DNA from: Candidatus Woesearchaeota archaeon
GTDB taxonomy: Archaea > Nanobdellota > Nanobdellia > Woesearchaeales > GW2011-AR4
Assembly: GCA_018303685.1 (NCBI GenBank)
Contig: JAGVXS010000038.1
Span: 1-32,443 of the forward strand
Length of the DNA: 32,443 nt
Reading direction: 5' to 3'
Shown here: in pieces, positions 12,822 through 22,732 of the stretch
Layout of the letters: each line of letters opens with the position of its first letter
Numbering within the stretch: the first letter of the stretch is position 1
Program-made: the position numbers and the translations under genes
The notes under the pieces: model-generated
Told to the model about the DNA's origin: nothing
The model's input: the letters and a program-made list of their open reading frames with translations, nothing else
Databases searched by the model: none

Positions 12822-13307
12822 CTATTTGGCTTTTAGAATTTTATTTATCAAGCTGGTTGTGGAATAGCCTTTCAGCATCGGGATTAATGCAATTTTTCCC
12901 CCATTTTTCTGAACAACATCTTTTTCAATGATTTTATTCAGCTTATAGTCGCCAGCCTTTGCATGGATATCAGGCTTGATTTTGTCCAGCCATTTTCTGG
13001 GGTCCTTTTCGCCAAAAAGAAAAACATAGTCAATGCTTTCAAGCCCTGCCAGCACCCCAATTCTTGATTTCTCGCCGTTAACCGGCCTTTTGTCGCCTTT
13101 GATTTTTTTGACTGAAGCGTCAGTATTAACCCCGACAATCAGGACATCGCCAAGCCTTTTTGCAGTTTCAAGGCATTTTACGTGCCCCAGGTGCAGTATG
13201 TCAAAAACACCATTAGTAGTGACAATTTTCTTATTCTGCTTTTTAAGTTTCCGGGCTATATGGGCCAGCTGGCTGATTGTTTTTATCTTATTTTTTGTCA
13301 TTTTCAA
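12822..13307 (-). CDS. hldC: D-glycero-beta-D-manno-heptose 1-phosphate adenylyltransferase (RfaE2/HldC-like)
   Basis: TTNGVFDILHLGHVKCLETAKRLGDVLIVGVNTDASVKKIKG...AGDY...GYSTTSLI cytidylyltransferase-like signatures. Confidence 0.88.
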   Translation of the reverse strand: MKMTKNKIKTISQLAHIARKLKKQNKKIVTTNGVFDILHLGHVKCLETAKRLGDVLIVGVNTDASVKKIKGDKRPVNGEKSRIGVLAGLESIDYVFLFGEKDPRKWLDKIKPDIHAKAGDYKLNKIIEKDVVQKNGGKIALIPMLKGYSTTSLINKILKAK

Positions 13308-13818
13308 TTATCCATTGTGCAGCATCAACCAAGTCCTTTGCAAAATAATCGGGAGTTACCTCATTTTTGTGCTTTACGCCGTCTCCAGTAAGCACGTGTA
13401 TTGTCCTGCAGCCCATGCTTTTGCCCATCTCAAAATCGCTTTTCCTGTCCCCTATGACGAATGACTTCTTCAAATTAATGCCAAATTCCGTCTCGGCGTC
13501 CTTCAAAAACTTTGTTTTTGGCTTGCGGCATTCGCAGTTGTCCTCGGGCTTGTGGGGGCAAAAATACATTTTTTCAATCTTAATGCTGTGCTTTCCAAGT
13601 TCCTTAAGCAGATGGCTGCTGAACTTGTTGAAATCCTCCATGGTAAATATTCCCTTCCCGAGCCCGGCCTGGTTTGTTATGATAAAAAGCTTATAACCTC
13701 CCAATAGCCTCAGCCCCTCGGCTGCATTTGGAATCATCCTGAAGTCTTCTAGCTTATGGACATAGCCCTTGTCCTCAACCAATACGCCGTCCCTGTCAAC
13801 AAAAACAGCTGATGTCAT
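13288..13818 (-). CDS. gmhB: D-glycero-D-manno-heptose 1,7-bisphosphate phosphatase (GmhB-like HAD)
   Basis: FVDRDGVL, FIITNQAGLGKG, CPHKPEDNCECRKPKTKF, VIGDRKSDFEMG. Confidence 0.9.
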   Translation of the reverse strand: MTSAVFVDRDGVLVEDKGYVHKLEDFRMIPNAAEGLRLLGGYKLFIITNQAGLGKGIFTMEDFNKFSSHLLKELGKHSIKIEKMYFCPHKPEDNCECRKPKTKFLKDAETEFGINLKKSFVIGDRKSDFEMGKSMGCRTIHVLTGDGVKHKNEVTPDYFAKDLVDAAQWIIENDKK

Positions 13819-14786
13819 ATGCTCTCAATTTCCCTTTTTATCTCTTCAATGCTGACAGAAGCAGTCCCTATCTTTCCCACCTTGATGCCTGCTGCTATGT
13901 TTGCAAGGGTTGCCGCCTCTTTCAGGTTAGAGCCTGAGGCAATTGCAAGGGCTATCGTTGCAACAACAGTGTCGCCTGCGCCTATAATGCTGTAAACCTC
14001 TTTCGCCTTGGCGGGAATGTGTGTGGTGCTTCCATCCTTCTCAAATAAAGACATCCCCTTTTCCCCCCTTGTCACTAAAACATTTGCATTGAGGGACTTT
14101 AAGAGTTTGGTGCCCATCTCCAAAACAGCTTCGTCGCCATCCTCTATGCCAGTCATTTCGCTTGCCTCTGCATTGTTCGGAGTTACTAGGGTCACATTCG
14201 CATACAAATCCTTGTGTTTAGGCTTAGGGTCGACAATTACAGCCTTGCTGTGCTCTTTTGCCATCTGAATCAGCTTATCGCAGATTGAAGGTGTTATCAC
14301 GCCTTTCGCATAGTCTGAAATTATAATAACATCCACTTGCTTGATTATTTTATTAAAGAATGAAATCATTCTGTCTTCTATGTCTTTGTGCACATGGTCT
14401 TTCTTTTCATAATCAACCCGCAATAATTGCTGGCTTTTGCCTATTATCCTTATTTTTTGCGTGGTGGGCTTGCCCCTGTCAATAAATATCCCTTCAGTGT
14501 TTATGCCTTTTTTATTCAGCTCCTCCAGAAGGATGTTTTTTGCATCATCATTTCCCGCAATTCCGGCCATAAAAGCCTTTCCTGTAAGCGCTGAAATGTT
14601 GCTTGCGACGTTTGCAGCACCCCCCGCCTCATAAGTTTCCCTCAATACATTCACTACTTGCACCGGCGCCTCGGGGCTTATCCTTGACACATCCCCCCAG
14701 AGGTACTTGTCGAGCATGATGTCGCCTATCACAAGTATTTTCTTGTTCTTGAACTGCTCTAAAATCCTCAACAGCCTTTGCTTCAT
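13815..14786 (-). CDS. hldA: D-glycero-beta-D-manno-heptose-7-phosphate kinase (RfaE1/HldA-like, PfkB fold)
   Basis: VIGDIMLDKYLWGDVSRISPEAPVQVV, GGAANVA, SDYAKGV, VDPKPKH, GAGDTVVA. Confidence 0.9.
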   Translation of the reverse strand: MKQRLLRILEQFKNKKILVIGDIMLDKYLWGDVSRISPEAPVQVVNVLRETYEAGGAANVASNISALTGKAFMAGIAGNDDAKNILLEELNKKGINTEGIFIDRGKPTTQKIRIIGKSQQLLRVDYEKKDHVHKDIEDRMISFFNKIIKQVDVIIISDYAKGVITPSICDKLIQMAKEHSKAVIVDPKPKHKDLYANVTLVTPNNAEASEMTGIEDGDEAVLEMGTKLLKSLNANVLVTRGEKGMSLFEKDGSTTHIPAKAKEVYSIIGAGDTVVATIALAIASGSNLKEAATLANIAAGIKVGKIGTASVSIEEIKREIESI

Positions 14787-15012: not shown

Positions 15013-15906
15013 TTAAATTTCATCAACAATCTTCCTGTGCAATGTCGGAATGGTTTTTTCATGCCTCTCAATTATGGCAAACCCTTCCCCTCCAAGCGAA
15101 GTCGGCCTTTGGACGACATTCTCTCTTGGCCTGTAGTGGTTTATCATGTCAAAATTCGCCGCAGTTATTTTCTCGACTTTAAACCCAAGGTTTCTTGCGA
15201 TTGTAAGCGCCTTTAAAAAAACTTCAGGCAGCACGACTGCCGAGCCCGCATTAATAACAACCCCTTCTTCAAGCCTGCTCACGCTTTCAGCAAAAATCTT
15301 GAAGTCATGGTAGCTTGTCTTTCCTACAGCAGCGCCGTCGCAGCTCGGGTGCTGGTGTATTATGTCTGTGCCGATTGCAACATGCACGGTTGCCGGAATT
15401 CCTAGTTTGTAGGCATTGTACAGGATGCTGCACTCCTTGTTTGGAAGGTTCAATTCATTTATTTTCTTTCCTATCGCATAGCCCATGCCATGGCTGTTTT
15501 TTGCGCCCTCTTTTATCGCTTCATTCAATATACTTCCTGTTTCCTCTATCATTCCGAATGTGCCGTCTTCGATTGTCTTTTCAACATACTCCGATGTTTC
15601 GCCTATAAGCGCAAGCTCAAAGTCATGAATCGGAACTGCCCCGTTCATTGCAATATGCTTTATTATTCCATTTTTCATCAAGTCTATGACAAGAAGGCTC
15701 ATGCCGACTTTTACGACATGTGCACCCATCATCAAAATTATCTGCTTTTTGTTCTTGTGGGCAAAAATTATTTTTTTTACCAAATCATCAAATTTTTTTG
15801 ACTCTATCAATATCCTAGAATTTGCAGGCTTAACCAAATCACTTAGCTTCACCTTATTTTTTCTCTGTTTTATTGATATTGTTTTTATCTTGCTGAAGTC
15901 TAGCAT
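15013..15906 (-). CDS. Conserved protein of unassigned function in the heptose operon; weak deoxyhypusine-synthase-like fold suspected
   Basis: 297 aa; GAHVVKVGMS, MNGAVPIHDFELALIGETSE, GTDIIHQHPSCDGAAVG. Confidence 0.6.
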   Translation of the reverse strand: MLDFSKIKTISIKQRKNKVKLSDLVKPANSRILIESKKFDDLVKKIIFAHKNKKQIILMMGAHVVKVGMSLLVIDLMKNGIIKHIAMNGAVPIHDFELALIGETSEYVEKTIEDGTFGMIEETGSILNEAIKEGAKNSHGMGYAIGKKINELNLPNKECSILYNAYKLGIPATVHVAIGTDIIHQHPSCDGAAVGKTSYHDFKIFAESVSRLEEGVVINAGSAVVLPEVFLKALTIARNLGFKVEKITAANFDMINHYRPRENVVQRPTSLGGEGFAIIERHEKTIPTLHRKIVDEI

Positions 15907-15908
15907 TT

Positions 15909-16487
15909 TTATCTCCCGAATAGCTCTTTTTCAGCCAACTCGCATATGATATGCAGGATCATAAGATGGGCTTCCTGGATTCTGGGAGTGTTGTCTGATG
16001 GGACAATTATCTCGACATAGCATGTGTTTTTCATTTTTCCGCCATTCTGGCCAAGAAGCCCGATAACTTTAACATTCATTTTTTCCGCCTTCTCAACAGC
16101 CTTTATTATATTTTGAGAGTTGCCGCTTGTAGATAATGCAATGAAAACATCTCCTTCATTTCCCAAAGCCTCAAGCTGCCTTTCAAATACCATTTCAAAT
16201 CCATAATCATTGCTTATCGCCGTCACAGACGCCAAATCTGTTGTCAATGCTATTGAAGGCAATCCTTTCCTTTCAAGCTTGAATCTTCCCACAAACTCGG
16301 CTGCAATGTGGACTGACTGACTGGCTGAGCCGCCATTGCCAGCCAAAAGTATTTTTTTATTATTTTTCAACGCGTTGACTATCAGCTTTACAGCCTCTTC
16401 TATCCTTGGAGCCAGAGACTTGCATGTCCCGATTGTTTCGGCGCTTTCCCCAATCATTGATTTTATTTTGTTCTGCATCAGCAACAC
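15909..16487 (-). CDS. gmhA: Sedoheptulose-7-phosphate isomerase (GmhA, SIS domain); likely ATG at 16476-16478
   Basis: [60 protein letters not shown]. Confidence 0.92.
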
Positions 16488-16489
16488 CT

Positions 16490-16510
16490 TAGTATGAATA
16501 TTTCATACTA
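16490..16510. promoter_or_regulatory. Putative operator: inverted repeat TAGTATGAA-TAT-TTCATACTA
   Basis: Perfect 9-bp arms; about 20-30 bp downstream of the minus-strand TATA box (TTTATATAC, 16524-16532), i.e. over the expected gmhA start site. Confidence 0.7.
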
Positions 16511-16611
16511 TACTCACAAACTAGTATATAAACCTTTCTATTTTTTAGGTCTTTTTAGTCAATAAAACACAAAAGCTTAAATAGTCATACTTTCTACTAC
16601 TATTTCATACC

Positions 16612-17361
16612 ATGGTAAAGCCAAAGATAGCGATATCGCTTGACAATTCGCTATTGAAGTTGATTGACTCTAAAGTGGACGGCTCTGTCATAAGAAGCAG
16701 ATCGCAGGCTGTAGAGTATTTTCTCAAGAAAGGGCTTCAGGAGCAGTCTGTAAGCGCAGCAGTCCTTCTGCTCAAGGGCGAGCATCAGCCAGTTGCCCTG
16801 AAGCAAGCCAAGGGCATGTCATTGATTAGGAACCAGATTGGCTTTTTTTCAAAATATGGGATAAGGACTGTGTATATTGTGACACAGCATACAAAAAACA
16901 TGAATTTACTGCTGCATGAAATTTCCAATGCCGGAATAAACGTTGAAATCATAGAAAAACAATCCAGAGGGAATGCAGATGCCCTGAAAGCCGTCAAAGA
17001 AAAAATAGCTGGCAACTTCATTGTAATGTCAGGCGACACCTACAACAATTTTGACTTGCTGAAGATGGTTAAAAAGCATGTTGAAGCTGAAAAAATGGCT
17101 ACAATGGGCCTGATGACTAGGGAAAAAACAAGCAGCTACGGGACAGCAATACTTGACGGAGACCTGATTGTCGATTTTGAGGAGAAGCCAAGGCATTACT
17201 CAACCAATATTGTGAATGCAGGAATCTACATTTTCAAGCCCGAGATTTTTGAATTGTTTGGGGATGCCATATCATTGGAAAAAGACTTGTTTCCAAAGCT
17301 TGCCAGAATGAAGCAACTGGTTGGGTTTTTCACGTATGGGGAATATTTGCATCTTGCTTAA
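16612..17361 (+). CDS. Ribbon-helix-helix domain fused to sugar-nucleotidyltransferase-like domain; putative regulator
   Basis: N-term KIAISLDNSLLKLIDSKVDGSVIRSRSQAVEYFLKKGLQE (RHH); C-term GNADALKAV, VMSGDTYNNFD, FEEKPRHYSTNIVNAGIYIFKPEIFE (NTP_transferase-like) without GxGTR. Confidence 0.8.
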   Translation: MVKPKIAISLDNSLLKLIDSKVDGSVIRSRSQAVEYFLKKGLQEQSVSAAVLLLKGEHQPVALKQAKGMSLIRNQIGFFSKYGIRTVYIVTQHTKNMNLLLHEISNAGINVEIIEKQSRGNADALKAVKEKIAGNFIVMSGDTYNNFDLLKMVKKHVEAEKMATMGLMTREKTSSYGTAILDGDLIVDFEEKPRHYSTNIVNAGIYIFKPEIFELFGDAISLEKDLFPKLARMKQLVGFFTYGEYLHLA

Positions 17362-18500
17362 ACCATCTTCTCCACTTCTTTCAGCACATCGTCAACGCTT
17401 ATGTTCTTCATGCACTTCTGGTAGTCATTGGAATTCTTGGGATACAGGCAGTCCGGTACTTCCCCTTTGTGTACGTTAATGCACGGGCTGAACTCACAGT
17501 TGTAGCCCTTGTACAGCCCGATGTTCCCTTTTCCGTAAGGCCCGAATCTTGCAGGAAGGTTAGGTCCAAACAATCCGAGTGTTTTAATGCCCTGTGCTGC
17601 AGCGATGTGCATCGCACCAGAATCATTTCCAACAAACAGCTTGCATTTTATCATCAAGTAAAATAATTGGTTTAAATTAATGTGTCCTGCCGTATTTATT
17701 GTCTTGCCTTTGTTTTCCATTTTTGCCTGTATTGATTTTATTAAATAGCCCTCTTCCGGTATTCCAGTAAAAATAATTTTTGCATTATGCCTTTCTATAA
17801 TTTCGTCGCAAAGCTCTGCATATCTTTCATATGGCCACATTCTTGCTTTTGCCGACTCGGCAGCTCCCGGAGCAACACAGATGACAAAGTCATTGCTTTG
17901 GATTTTATTGTTTTTTAAAAATTTATCAATGAAAGTTTTGTCATTTTTAGAAAAATTTAACTTATGCAGTTTGCTTGCATCATGCGCAATACCCAAAGCC
18001 CTGATTAAATCCAGAAATGTCTGCACAGCATGCTGCTTGTCGTTATACCTGACTTTATCATTGTACAACCTAGCCCTGGAGCCGTGGGAATATCCAACAA
18101 CCCTTTTTCCCGCAAAAAAAGAAATAATTGCCGATATATTGAGGTACTCCTCCATGTCCACAACCAAGTCGTATTTTTTTATGTTTTTGAAAATAAAGTT
18201 AAGAACTGAAAATGGATTTGGCTTTATTAAACAGACTTTATCAATGCTTTTATTTCCAAAAAACACGTCCTTGTTTCTTGCAGTTGCCAGAATGTTTATC
18301 TCGGCATTTGGAAAATTCTTTCGCAGGGCTTCAAGCGCAGGCAGCACTAGAACTGTCTCGCCAATTCCCCAAAGCTGGACTGCAAGAATTTTTTTATATT
18401 CAATTTTTTTGATTTCAGCATTTCTTCTGCTGAACAAGCTCAGGATATTGCACACTAAGTTCCCGACATGCCTGTCAATGAATTTGATTAAAAATACCAT
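17358..18500 (-). CDS. Glycosyltransferase family 9 (heptosyltransferase-like)
   Basis: ILAVQLWGIGETVLVLPALEALRKNFPNAEI, FVGNDSGAMHIAAAQGIKTLGLFGPN, CEFSPC. Confidence 0.9.
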   Translation of the reverse strand: MVFLIKFIDRHVGNLVCNILSLFSRRNAEIKKIEYKKILAVQLWGIGETVLVLPALEALRKNFPNAEINILATARNKDVFFGNKSIDKVCLIKPNPFSVLNFIFKNIKKYDLVVDMEEYLNISAIISFFAGKRVVGYSHGSRARLYNDKVRYNDKQHAVQTFLDLIRALGIAHDASKLHKLNFSKNDKTFIDKFLKNNKIQSNDFVICVAPGAAESAKARMWPYERYAELCDEIIERHNAKIIFTGIPEEGYLIKSIQAKMENKGKTINTAGHINLNQLFYLMIKCKLFVGNDSGAMHIAAAQGIKTLGLFGPNLPARFGPYGKGNIGLYKGYNCEFSPCINVHKGEVPDCLYPKNSNDYQKCMKNISVDDVLKEVEKMV

Positions 18501-19564: not shown

Positions 19565-22500
19565 CTAAGAATTGCCTGCAGTGCTGTTTATTGACTCTGT
19601 GGCTTCGCTGCTCTCTTCTTTGCTGATCTTCTCCAAAATATCGGCGTAATCCTGCACTATTGTGGCATTTCCGCCTTCCCAGTCAACCTTATACACATAA
19701 ATATTTGTTTCAAGCTGGGAGCCGGGAAATACAAGCTGATGGTCAATCACTTTGAAATATTTAAGCCCGTGCCCTTTCATGTAAAACATTCTCGTGAACA
19801 TGCCGCCGACCAATTCCTTCATTGACAGGATGCCTGTAATCTCATTCTCGCTTTTCGGCACCAAGGTTATCCCAAAGTCAAGCGTAGCGCCTTCAAAATC
19901 TTTCCTGAAAAGCCCGTCTTTTGACGCGAATGCAGCCGATTTTGGCCTTAAAATTCCCTGCTGCCCGATTCCGAAAACATCATAGTTGCTTAAGTTCACC
20001 TGCAGCCCGTTGCCGCACACATAAATTTTGCTTTTGTCGCTTCTGATGCAGTCGGTTATGCCTGCGTAGCTGGGCCACGGCGCAATCCATGTGTTTGCCT
20101 CGTTGTCGCTTGTTATTGACTGGATTTCAAAGTAAATGTTTTCCGCTTTCTCCCTTGTATAATTGAACTTCTTCATCATATAGCTGACAGCCTCCACCTG
20201 CGGCATTTTTCTTGCATTCTGCCAGATGTCAGCCCTTTCAAAATTCCAGCTGCCGAAATGCCCCCATACCCCGCTTTTGCCTATCATGTCGTTAGATGCA
20301 ATAAAGTACGCCTCTGGCTCCTCGCAATGCGTGAATGAAAGTATTTTTTCAACATCCTTTGAATCAAGCTTGAGAGCTTTCAGCTCTTTCTGTGCCTGAT
20401 TCCTGCCCAAAAGTATAATTTTGTTAAGTATCTTCAGCGTTTTGTGGGAGTCATTGGTGATTTCAAACAGCTTGTTGAATGCATTGTCGCTTCCGCAGTC
20501 GAGCATCCTTAGAATGCCAATAGCCTCTCTTTCATCGCTTACCATCAGCAGCTTGCCCACCCAGTGAGCTGCAGTGGCAGTCTGGGTAGTGCCGTCAAAA
20601 GTGACTCTTCTGCCCGTAAGCGCCTTGAAGTGATGCCCGAAGTCCCACCACGACGTGATTATGGCATCTTCGCCAGAGCCGTTCTTTATGGTGTTCAATG
20701 CATTGTACCATGCGTCATTGACGATTGGTATGTCGGATCCAGCAGCGGCAACAGCCCCTTTTATGGGATTGGCAAAAACCAGCAGCCACACCACAATCAG
20801 CATTCCGCTGCTTATTATTTTATGGATTTTGAATTCCTTTGTCAGCCATCTGGACAGGTGGGTATAGCTTTTTCCGATGGCAACGCCCAAAGCAACGCTG
20901 AATGCAGGGGCCAAAAGCAGCGTAAACCTCACGCCTTTGATGCTTGCGAACATAGTAGATACAATCCAAAGCGACAATAGTATGGGAAGCTGGAAATCAT
21001 AAGAAGAGTCTTTTTTGTAAATTGAAATCGCTATTCTGGCTAAAACAGGCAGCATTATCCATGCCAGCAGCGTGTATATCTTCAACGACTGGTATATTGG
21101 CGGGCTGCTGCCGAAGCTGATAAATAAAATCCCGTAGAAAACGGCAGCTCCGATAAAGTACACAAAGTCAGATTTTTTTATCCCCTCGCTTCTTGATATT
21201 GAAAGCACAAGCCCCAGGAGGCTTATGAAAAACAGGAAAATGCCCCCCATGGAATTTATTATGTTGTTTATTGAGCCTTCGTTCAGCTCTGCAACGGTTG
21301 TCAGCACATTCGGCCAGAATGCAGTCGGCGAAATCACAGGCGCCTTGATTGAGGTAAAGCTGAAGGGGCCTGCAAAGCTGCTGCTGAATGTATGCCATCC
21401 TGAAAATAAAGTTACAAATGCAGCAGTTGAAATGAAGTAAATAGTTCCTGCAAGCGCCATTCGCCTTATGGCCGGGTTGGCTAAAACAGGCTTTATGCTT
21501 TTGGCTGCAAAAAAATCAGTCAACGCCAGATAAGCCAAAACCGCTGCAGCAGTCGCAATCAGGAAGTCAAAAACATACCACCACCCGCTCCATGCAGAGG
21601 TGAACATGCCTGTAAAAAATCCTGCAAGCGCTGCAAGCACAATCCCTCTTATTTTTTTGCCGTCAATCGCCTCGATGAAAAGCCATGTCACCAAAAGAGG
21701 GAAAAATACAACCCATGCGTCGCTGTCAGCATGCCCGAACAAAGTCCTGCCGAGAAAAGCTGAATTGACCGCCATCATGACGCCTGCAAAAAGCCCCCCC
21801 ATGTTGCCTGCAATTTTTCTGGTAATCAGGAATACAAGCAGCACGCATAATGCCGAAACAAAAATCGGGTAGTAAAACAATGAGCGCATAAGCGTCAGGC
21901 CCGGCACAAGCAAATGCAGAGCCTTGTAGAAATAAGCCAGAAAATAAGGGTGGAACATGTCAGGGAAGACAAACCTTCCGTTTGGGGCGTACTGCCTGGT
22001 GTCAAATGGCCTGTTGTCCTTCAGTATGTCGCCCGGATGCCCGTTCTCAATGATGTTTTTTGCGTACCTGAACCAGTAATACGGGTCGATATCCGGCATA
22101 TAGTTTCTGTTGTTCCCGTCCTGAAAAAATGACTTGAAGTAAGCTGAGGTTTCCCTGATGCGCTGCTCAATCTGCTGGCTGTTCTGGCTTATCGCTCTTT
22201 GGAGCTCTGTATCAACAAGCGCATTTTTGTTTGAGTCAGGCAGATTTGGGTACTGCTGGTCAATCGAAGCCCTTATCTGCGCTCTTATGGAGTTTACCAC
22301 GCTGTCTGCAGCCCACCTGTCTGTCATTGGCAGCAAGCCCGCCTGCATCCTGATATAGATTGAAAGAATTATCGGGATAAGCGCTATGAATATAACGCCG
22401 TATTTTTTGAAGAAATCTGCAACTTTGCCCCAATTCACCTGTATGTCATCGCCGCCTGCAGCCTCTTTTTCTTCATGTCTGAAAAATTTCTTTATCCTGC

Positions 22501-22732
22501 CAAAGTCAAATGACAGCTCGTCATCATCTTTTTCCTTTGCCGGGGCTCGGGCATCTTCTGTTTTTTCGCTTTTGAAGAAATTCTTTACTTTGCTGAAGTC
22601 TATAGTTATCTCTTCATCATCTTTTTTCCCTTCTTTTTGAGCTTCATCAGGCTTTTTTTCCTCTTTGCTTTTGAAGAAATTCTTTATTTTCCCGAAGTCA
22701 ATAGATATCTCTTCATCTTCTTTGCTTTCCAT
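19565..22732 (-). CDS. aglB: Oligosaccharyltransferase STT3/AglB with N-terminal repeat extension
   Basis: DPYYWFRYAKN, GHADSDAWVVFFPL, SWWDFGHHFKALTGR (WWDxG); 1055 aa polytopic. Confidence 0.93.
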   Translation of the reverse strand: MESKEDEEISIDFGKIKNFFKSKEEKKPDEAQKEGKKDDEEITIDFSKVKNFFKSEKTEDARAPAKEKDDDELSFDFGRIKKFFRHEEKEAAGGDDIQVNWGKVADFFKKYGVIFIALIPIILSIYIRMQAGLLPMTDRWAADSVVNSIRAQIRASIDQQYPNLPDSNKNALVDTELQRAISQNSQQIEQRIRETSAYFKSFFQDGNNRNYMPDIDPYYWFRYAKNIIENGHPGDILKDNRPFDTRQYAPNGRFVFPDMFHPYFLAYFYKALHLLVPGLTLMRSLFYYPIFVSALCVLLVFLITRKIAGNMGGLFAGVMMAVNSAFLGRTLFGHADSDAWVVFFPLLVTWLFIEAIDGKKIRGIVLAALAGFFTGMFTSAWSGWWYVFDFLIATAAAVLAYLALTDFFAAKSIKPVLANPAIRRMALAGTIYFISTAAFVTLFSGWHTFSSSFAGPFSFTSIKAPVISPTAFWPNVLTTVAELNEGSINNIINSMGGIFLFFISLLGLVLSISRSEGIKKSDFVYFIGAAVFYGILFISFGSSPPIYQSLKIYTLLAWIMLPVLARIAISIYKKDSSYDFQLPILLSLWIVSTMFASIKGVRFTLLLAPAFSVALGVAIGKSYTHLSRWLTKEFKIHKIISSGMLIVVWLLVFANPIKGAVAAAGSDIPIVNDAWYNALNTIKNGSGEDAIITSWWDFGHHFKALTGRRVTFDGTTQTATAAHWVGKLLMVSDEREAIGILRMLDCGSDNAFNKLFEITNDSHKTLKILNKIILLGRNQAQKELKALKLDSKDVEKILSFTHCEEPEAYFIASNDMIGKSGVWGHFGSWNFERADIWQNARKMPQVEAVSYMMKKFNYTREKAENIYFEIQSITSDNEANTWIAPWPSYAGITDCIRSDKSKIYVCGNGLQVNLSNYDVFGIGQQGILRPKSAAFASKDGLFRKDFEGATLDFGITLVPKSENEITGILSMKELVGGMFTRMFYMKGHGLKYFKVIDHQLVFPGSQLETNIYVYKVDWEGGNATIVQDYADILEKISKEESSEATESINSTAGNS

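Follow-up and report, generated by a model that had tools for sequence, protein, structure and literature searches.

The window analysed here, a stretch of 32,443 nucleotides, comes from a contig of a Candidatus Woesearchaeota archaeon (assembly of 83 contigs, 1.13 Mb), whose named relatives in a scan of a genome collection are Woesearchaeota and Nanoarchaeota. At 16612..17361 it encodes a protein in which a ribbon-helix-helix (RHH) domain is fused to a sugar-1-phosphate nucleotidyltransferase fold lacking catalytic motifs of the active enzymes. The gene is divergent from an operon for the biosynthesis of ADP-heptose and convergent with a GT9 gene. The gap between gmhA and the regulator gene is 124 bp long and contains both putative operators. 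The features of the locus are as follows.

16612..17361 (+): coding sequence of the RHH-pseudo-nucleotidyltransferase, 249 amino acids, ATG start (open reading frame (ORF) call, translation, profile matches, relatives)
16612..16755 (+): RHH domain, predicted to bind DNA, residues 1-48, with strand KIAISL and helices 12-20 and 30-44 (weak profiles, conservation, predicted structure)
16756..17358 (+): degenerate sugar-1-phosphate nucleotidyltransferase domain, residues 49-249 (PF00483, 1.9e-23; AlphaFold predicted local distance difference test (pLDDT) 90; Foldseek match to the GDP-mannose pyrophosphorylase (GMPP) 7x8k, 8.9e-18)
16765..16815 (+): residues 52-68, LLLKGEHQPVALKQAKG, in place of the catalytic loop GGxGTRLxPLTxxxPK (translation, motif table)
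15909..16487 (-): gmhA, D-sedoheptulose 7-phosphate isomerase (TIGR00441, 9.6e-63, above cut-off), divergent from the regulator gene and first gene of the putative target operon
16490..16510 (no strand): putative operator 1, perfect palindrome TAGTATGAA-TAT-TTCATACTA at the gmhA-operon promoter, conserved in relatives
16524..16533 (-): putative TATA box of the gmhA operon, by resemblance, conserved in the alignment
16576..16583 (+): putative TATA box of the regulator gene (CTTAAATA), by resemblance, conserved in the alignment
16584..16611 (no strand): putative operator 2, direct repeats GTCATACTTTCTACTACTATTTCATACC with a 10-bp period, 28 bp, filling the space between the regulator's own TATA box and its ATG
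17358..18500 (-): GT9 gene, convergent with the regulator gene with an overlap of 4 bp

An RHH domain on a degenerate nucleotidyltransferase

The same fusion is found in about 50 orthologues from Woesearchaeota and Nanoarchaeota (46-83% identity over residues 1-248). Matches came from 35 of the 36 genomes in the source genome's GTDB-type family, nearly all of them full-length including the RHH part. Residues 5-33 are highly conserved among the orthologues, and the ratio of nonsynonymous to synonymous differences (pN/pS), calculated against 29 of them, is 0.128 for the RHH domain, 0.314 for the replaced loop and 0.164 for the remaining enzyme domain, values that indicate purifying selection on both domains. 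Structure prediction, proposed as a check in an earlier reading of the same DNA (the sequence-only reading), gave an AlphaFold2 model from 67 related sequences with a mean pLDDT of 90.3, in which the two N-terminal helices (12-20 and 30-44) are placed with high confidence and the remainder adopts the alpha/beta nucleotidyltransferase fold. The matches to RHH profiles are weak, also for the RHH region of NikR (1.3e-3), and a B-type sister protein, from a paralogous group described below, scores 17.4 bits with RHH_1. The domain is nevertheless regarded as genuine because it is conserved across orthologues, has a pN/pS below that of the remaining protein and contains the predicted helices. The RHH assignment to residues ~1-45 made in the sequence-only reading can thus be upheld. 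A mis-called start in the homologues, which that reading had named as an argument against itself, was rejected in view of the conserved full fusion and the low pN/pS of the RHH part. Taken by itself, the low RHH_1 score would fit such a mis-call, or a chance fusion in which the palindrome belongs to another regulator; with the fusion kept in the orthologues and in at least four paralogous groups, and with no other conserved regulator gene recognised at the locus, this is barely credible. The predicted role of the N-terminal domain, of which only the monomer was modelled, is to bind DNA as an RHH dimer.

The C-terminal domain matches Pfam NTP_transferase at residues 63-216 with 83.8 bits (cut-off 21.2 bits), and among solved structures it is closest to GDP-mannose pyrophosphorylases, human GMPPA and GMPPB among them. 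All motifs by which the fold had been recognised from the letters (GNADAL, SGDTYNNFD and FEEKP...NAGIYIFKPEIFE) are present, with LLLKGEHQPVALKQAKG where GGxGTRLxPLT would be expected. Catalytic motifs were compared in an alignment-based table of 17 proteins of the window protein's group (A-type) and of its sister groups. In all 17 A-type proteins the GxGTR loop and the PK lysine are missing and the second metal-binding Asp position, near the C-terminus of the domain, is occupied by His, while the sugar-side motifs G-N-A, G-D, E-K and N-A-G are kept in nearly all. The suspected loss of catalysis is therefore supported, since loop, lysine and second metal Asp are absent; the A-type domain appears to be dead on the nucleotide side, with the sugar-phosphate half of the pocket retained.

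Two other roles for this domain have to be considered. The protein might be a trigger enzyme, that is, a still active nucleotidyltransferase with a non-canonical loop, to which the RHH domain adds autoregulation in the manner of PutA or BirA. The retained fold and sugar-side motifs, including the conserved D142 of SGD and the EKP lysine, would allow for this, and paralogues with the full catalytic set show that RHH-enzymes exist. However, the three catalytic elements are missing throughout the tabulated A-type proteins and the divergent operon encodes a separate heptose 1-phosphate adenylyltransferase, which makes such activity highly unlikely. Alternatively, the domain could be a mere oligomerisation scaffold of an RHH regulator, without any sensing; the faster evolution of the loop region and the D-type relatives, which have lost yet more motifs, are in line with this, but the A-type proteins hardly vary in their sugar-side pocket motifs and the domain as a whole is under purifying selection. 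A pure scaffold is therefore considered unlikely.

Candidate operators at the heptose operon

The gene arrangement described in the sequence-only reading, with gmhA divergent and the GT9 gene overlapping from the opposite side, was confirmed. Downstream of gmhA, the following genes are located in the operon.

15013..15906 (-): GSU2086-family, deoxyhypusine-synthase-like protein (NF052581, 3.1e-125)
13815..14786 (-): hldE kinase domain protein, heptose 7-phosphate kinase (TIGR02198, 3.7e-115)
13288..13818 (-): gmhB-like heptose 1,7-bisphosphate 7-phosphatase (profile search)
12822..13307 (-): hldE adenylyltransferase domain protein, heptose 1-phosphate adenylyltransferase (TIGR02199, 1e-55)

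Neighbourhood analysis of the homologues, another check proposed earlier, revealed that nearly every orthologue is divergent from such an ADP-heptose operon, in which gmhA or a cupin gene comes first, followed by hldA-gmhB-hldC-type genes (kinase, bisphosphatase, adenylyltransferase) and then by a GSU2086-family gene or one similar to HldD (ADP-heptose epimerase).

In an alignment of 16 divergent regions, four blocks are conserved: two TATA-like boxes, one for either direction, and the two putative operators, palindrome and direct repeats. The sequence in the middle has diverged. The palindrome has the general form GTATGA-N4/5-TCATAC and lies beside the operon start, at a median distance of 11 bp from the start of the divergent gene. 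Within 700 kb of scanned loci, 39 of the 54 orthologues have it no more than 300 bp upstream, and the remaining four copies in the same 700 kb are also found at these loci; in L074, L083 and L090 a gene now sits between palindrome and regulator, and in L073 the palindrome is at a contig edge. In loci where other genes have come to lie in front of the regulator, the palindrome has remained with the promoter of the operon. The source genome (1.13 Mb) has one exact palindrome, and the 36 family genomes have about one each (32 distinct sites; none for the reversed control pattern). Thirty of the 32 sites adjoin the regulator gene and another is found at the gmhA promoter in a genome with the locus divided between contigs, so that 31 of 32 are at the locus; the only one elsewhere is inside a methionyl-tRNA-synthetase-like ORF. 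A large regulon was rejected on these counts, and the regulon predicted from the sites is confined to nearly a single locus. No matching sites were found at the promoters of the convergent GT9 and AglB genes when the window outside 16490-16611 was scanned. Of the control over heptose genes proposed in the sequence-only reading, the part concerning the divergent heptose operon is thus favoured by putative operators at both divergent promoters and a palindrome nearly unique in the genome, while the part concerning the GT9 gene has no site to rest on. Searches for bacterial sigma-70-type promoters, terminators and known RNA families yielded nothing informative. In two genomes (L077 upstream of 3838 and L167:1100-1406), short inverted-repeat or insertion-like DNA splits the divergent promoter, parting the regulator from the operator.

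Taken together, the protein is proposed, with a probability of about 0.75, to act locally as an autoregulated one-component repressor, with heptose biosynthesis as its single target and a pseudo-enzyme domain as sensor of a sugar phosphate or nucleotide sugar of the pathway. DNA binding and the identity of the target operon are well supported predictions; that the window protein itself binds both sites is presumed. The RHH domain would bind the palindrome over the promoter of the divergent operon, from gmhA onward, and the direct repeats over the regulator's own promoter. The bound protein would then block TATA-binding protein (TBP), transcription factor B (TFB) and RNA polymerase at both promoters, because both putative operators are placed between TATA box and start codon. 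Repression of the heptose operon is likely from the operator position, and the second site beside the regulator's own promoter suggests autoregulation. The C-terminal domain, presumably a former sugar-1-phosphate nucleotidyltransferase whose NTP-binding and catalytic elements are gone and whose sugar-phosphate half of the pocket is kept, is most likely a sensor for one of the pathway's intermediates or products and would thereby exert feedback control; the retained pocket and the target pathway point to a heptose phosphate or a nucleoside diphosphate (NDP)-heptose as ligand.

Several points weigh against this proposal. The RHH_1 match (residues 8-35; 0.06) is below the Pfam gathering score (13.8 vs. 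20.5 bits), and the RHH strand is unassigned in the monomer model, as expected where the strand pairs only in the dimer. Fifteen of the 54 orthologues have no exact palindrome within 300 bp, some due to gene insertion, others with a diverged site seen by eye, and orthologues share their sites partly by descent. Furthermore, the sequence cannot give the sign of regulation and some RHH proteins act as activators, so that an activator or dual regulator might be considered instead; each site comes after its TATA box and overlaps the point where transcription would be expected to start, which is the position of a repressor, and activation is decidedly unlikely.

Paralogous groups with intact and lost catalytic sets

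The A-type proteins are part of a wider family of RHH-nucleotidyltransferase fusions in DPANN archaea, with at least four paralogous groups besides their own. B-type sisters, present in the same genomes, have the full catalytic set (LVGGRGTRL...PKALL, NGD, VEKP, NAGFY, GQWFDIG), which groups C, D and a Diapherotrites/Aenigmatarchaeota group have lost, like the A-type. B-type genes face those for GlpX fructose-bisphosphatase, class I aldolase and type II GAPDH, often with phosphomannomutase/phosphoglucomutase downstream; in the examples L037:5410-6270 and L034-L041, a TCATAC-N4-TCATAC direct repeat lies between the promoters of the B-type gene and the divergent gluconeogenesis genes. C-type genes face UDP-glucose dehydrogenase and a dehydratase-like short-chain dehydrogenase/reductase, and D-type genes a DegT-like aminotransferase and a methyltransferase-like gene (judged by eye). 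In a tree of the enzyme domain, calculated without RHH and loop, each group forms one clade (Shimodaira-Hasegawa-like approximate likelihood ratio test (SH-aLRT) 97-100). A branch of moderate support (90) separates the degenerate groups from the others. This is suggestive of a single loss of catalysis, but long branches meet at this point.

The operator-like repeats of the paralogues are direct, with a 10-bp period. In groups with an R-[TS]-x RHH strand, TCATAC-N4-TCATAC was found upstream in 13 of 25 cases (exact matches) compared to three occurrences in 1.0 Mb of other sequence, and in groups with K-S-x, CTAC-N6-CTAC in 6 of 9 compared to five in 1.0 Mb. The K-A-S group, which includes the window protein (strand residues K5, A7 and S9), has the palindrome. 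With direct recognition by the RHH strand, operators are expected to vary with the strand residues, as seen here; that the operator follows these residues is suggestive, the groups being few and related. It would be an even bet that the fusions are DPANN-wide regulators of sugar status, in which intact members act as trigger enzymes that signal the synthesis of sugar nucleotides at the gluconeogenesis/phosphomannomutase node and several of the degenerate branches are pure sensors, each directed by the specificity of its RHH domain to a single operon for sugar nucleotides (heptose, UDP-glucuronate/xylose-type, aminotransferase/methyltransferase cluster). At the Diapherotrites loci L108, L113 and L115, one degenerate RHH-nucleotidyltransferase and one with an intact loop are encoded close together, near sugar-nucleotide genes.

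Relation to known regulators and minor observations

Enzyme-derived one-component regulators include NadR, BirA, PutA (RHH on proline dehydrogenase) and the ROK and RpiR/SIS families. In these, a DNA-binding domain is joined to the fold of a metabolic enzyme, which senses metabolites of the pathway, and control is often local and autoregulated. The window protein is predicted to work in the same way and may be regarded as a variant of this type in which a nucleotidyltransferase fold lacks catalytic motifs of the active enzymes. To our knowledge, none of the known enzyme-derived regulators, which are mostly bacterial, combines RHH with a sugar-1-phosphate nucleotidyltransferase, and no description of such a fusion was found in the open-access papers searched. 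For the DNA-binding half, NikR and PutA are precedents. As proposed for the window protein, NikR and other RHH repressors (MetJ/Arc/CopG) have an N-terminal RHH, a C-terminal sensor domain and operators of repeated short half-sites, although the NikR sensor is a nickel-binding ACT-like domain. HddC, a heptose 1-phosphate guanylyltransferase (5xhw), resembles the enzyme domain (phmmer 1.7e-10, Foldseek 2.3e-13) and uses a heptose phosphate, but is active, has the catalytic loop and lacks an RHH domain. It is not the best-scoring family, the archaeal GlmU-type profile being stronger, and is lower in the Foldseek list than the pyrophosphorylases. For the sensing half, GMPPA is a precedent. It has the same fold (Foldseek 7d72) and is described in PMC11228364 as a paralogue of GDP-mannose pyrophosphorylase B (GMPPB) that is itself non-catalytic; this dead nucleotidyltransferase binds GDP-mannose and exerts feedback on GMPPB. 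Unlike the window protein, it is eukaryotic, has no DNA-binding domain and regulates the enzyme by protein contact.

With this model, a metabolic regulator of DPANN archaea gains a predicted target, operator and sensor logic. In this family a metabolic enzyme has apparently been converted into a transcription factor, and genomes of about 1 Mb still contain intact relatives next to dead ones. As the operators are short and the protein is small, the model is open to in vitro testing without culturing the organism.

GSU2086-family and HldD-like epimerase genes never occur together in the heptose operons of about 50 loci, and no HldD-grade epimerase was found in the source genome; GSU2086 may stand in for ADP-heptose 6-epimerase as a non-orthologous replacement. 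Similarly, a cupin of 119 amino acids (Cupin_2/mannose-6-phosphate isomerase C-terminal-like; L078:7534-7893 (-) and other A-type loci) is never found together with gmhA and may replace GmhA. An AglB/STT3-like protein encoded in the window starts with about four degenerate DDEEISIDFGKIKNFFKSKE-type repeats (22430-22732, -) before its first membrane segment.
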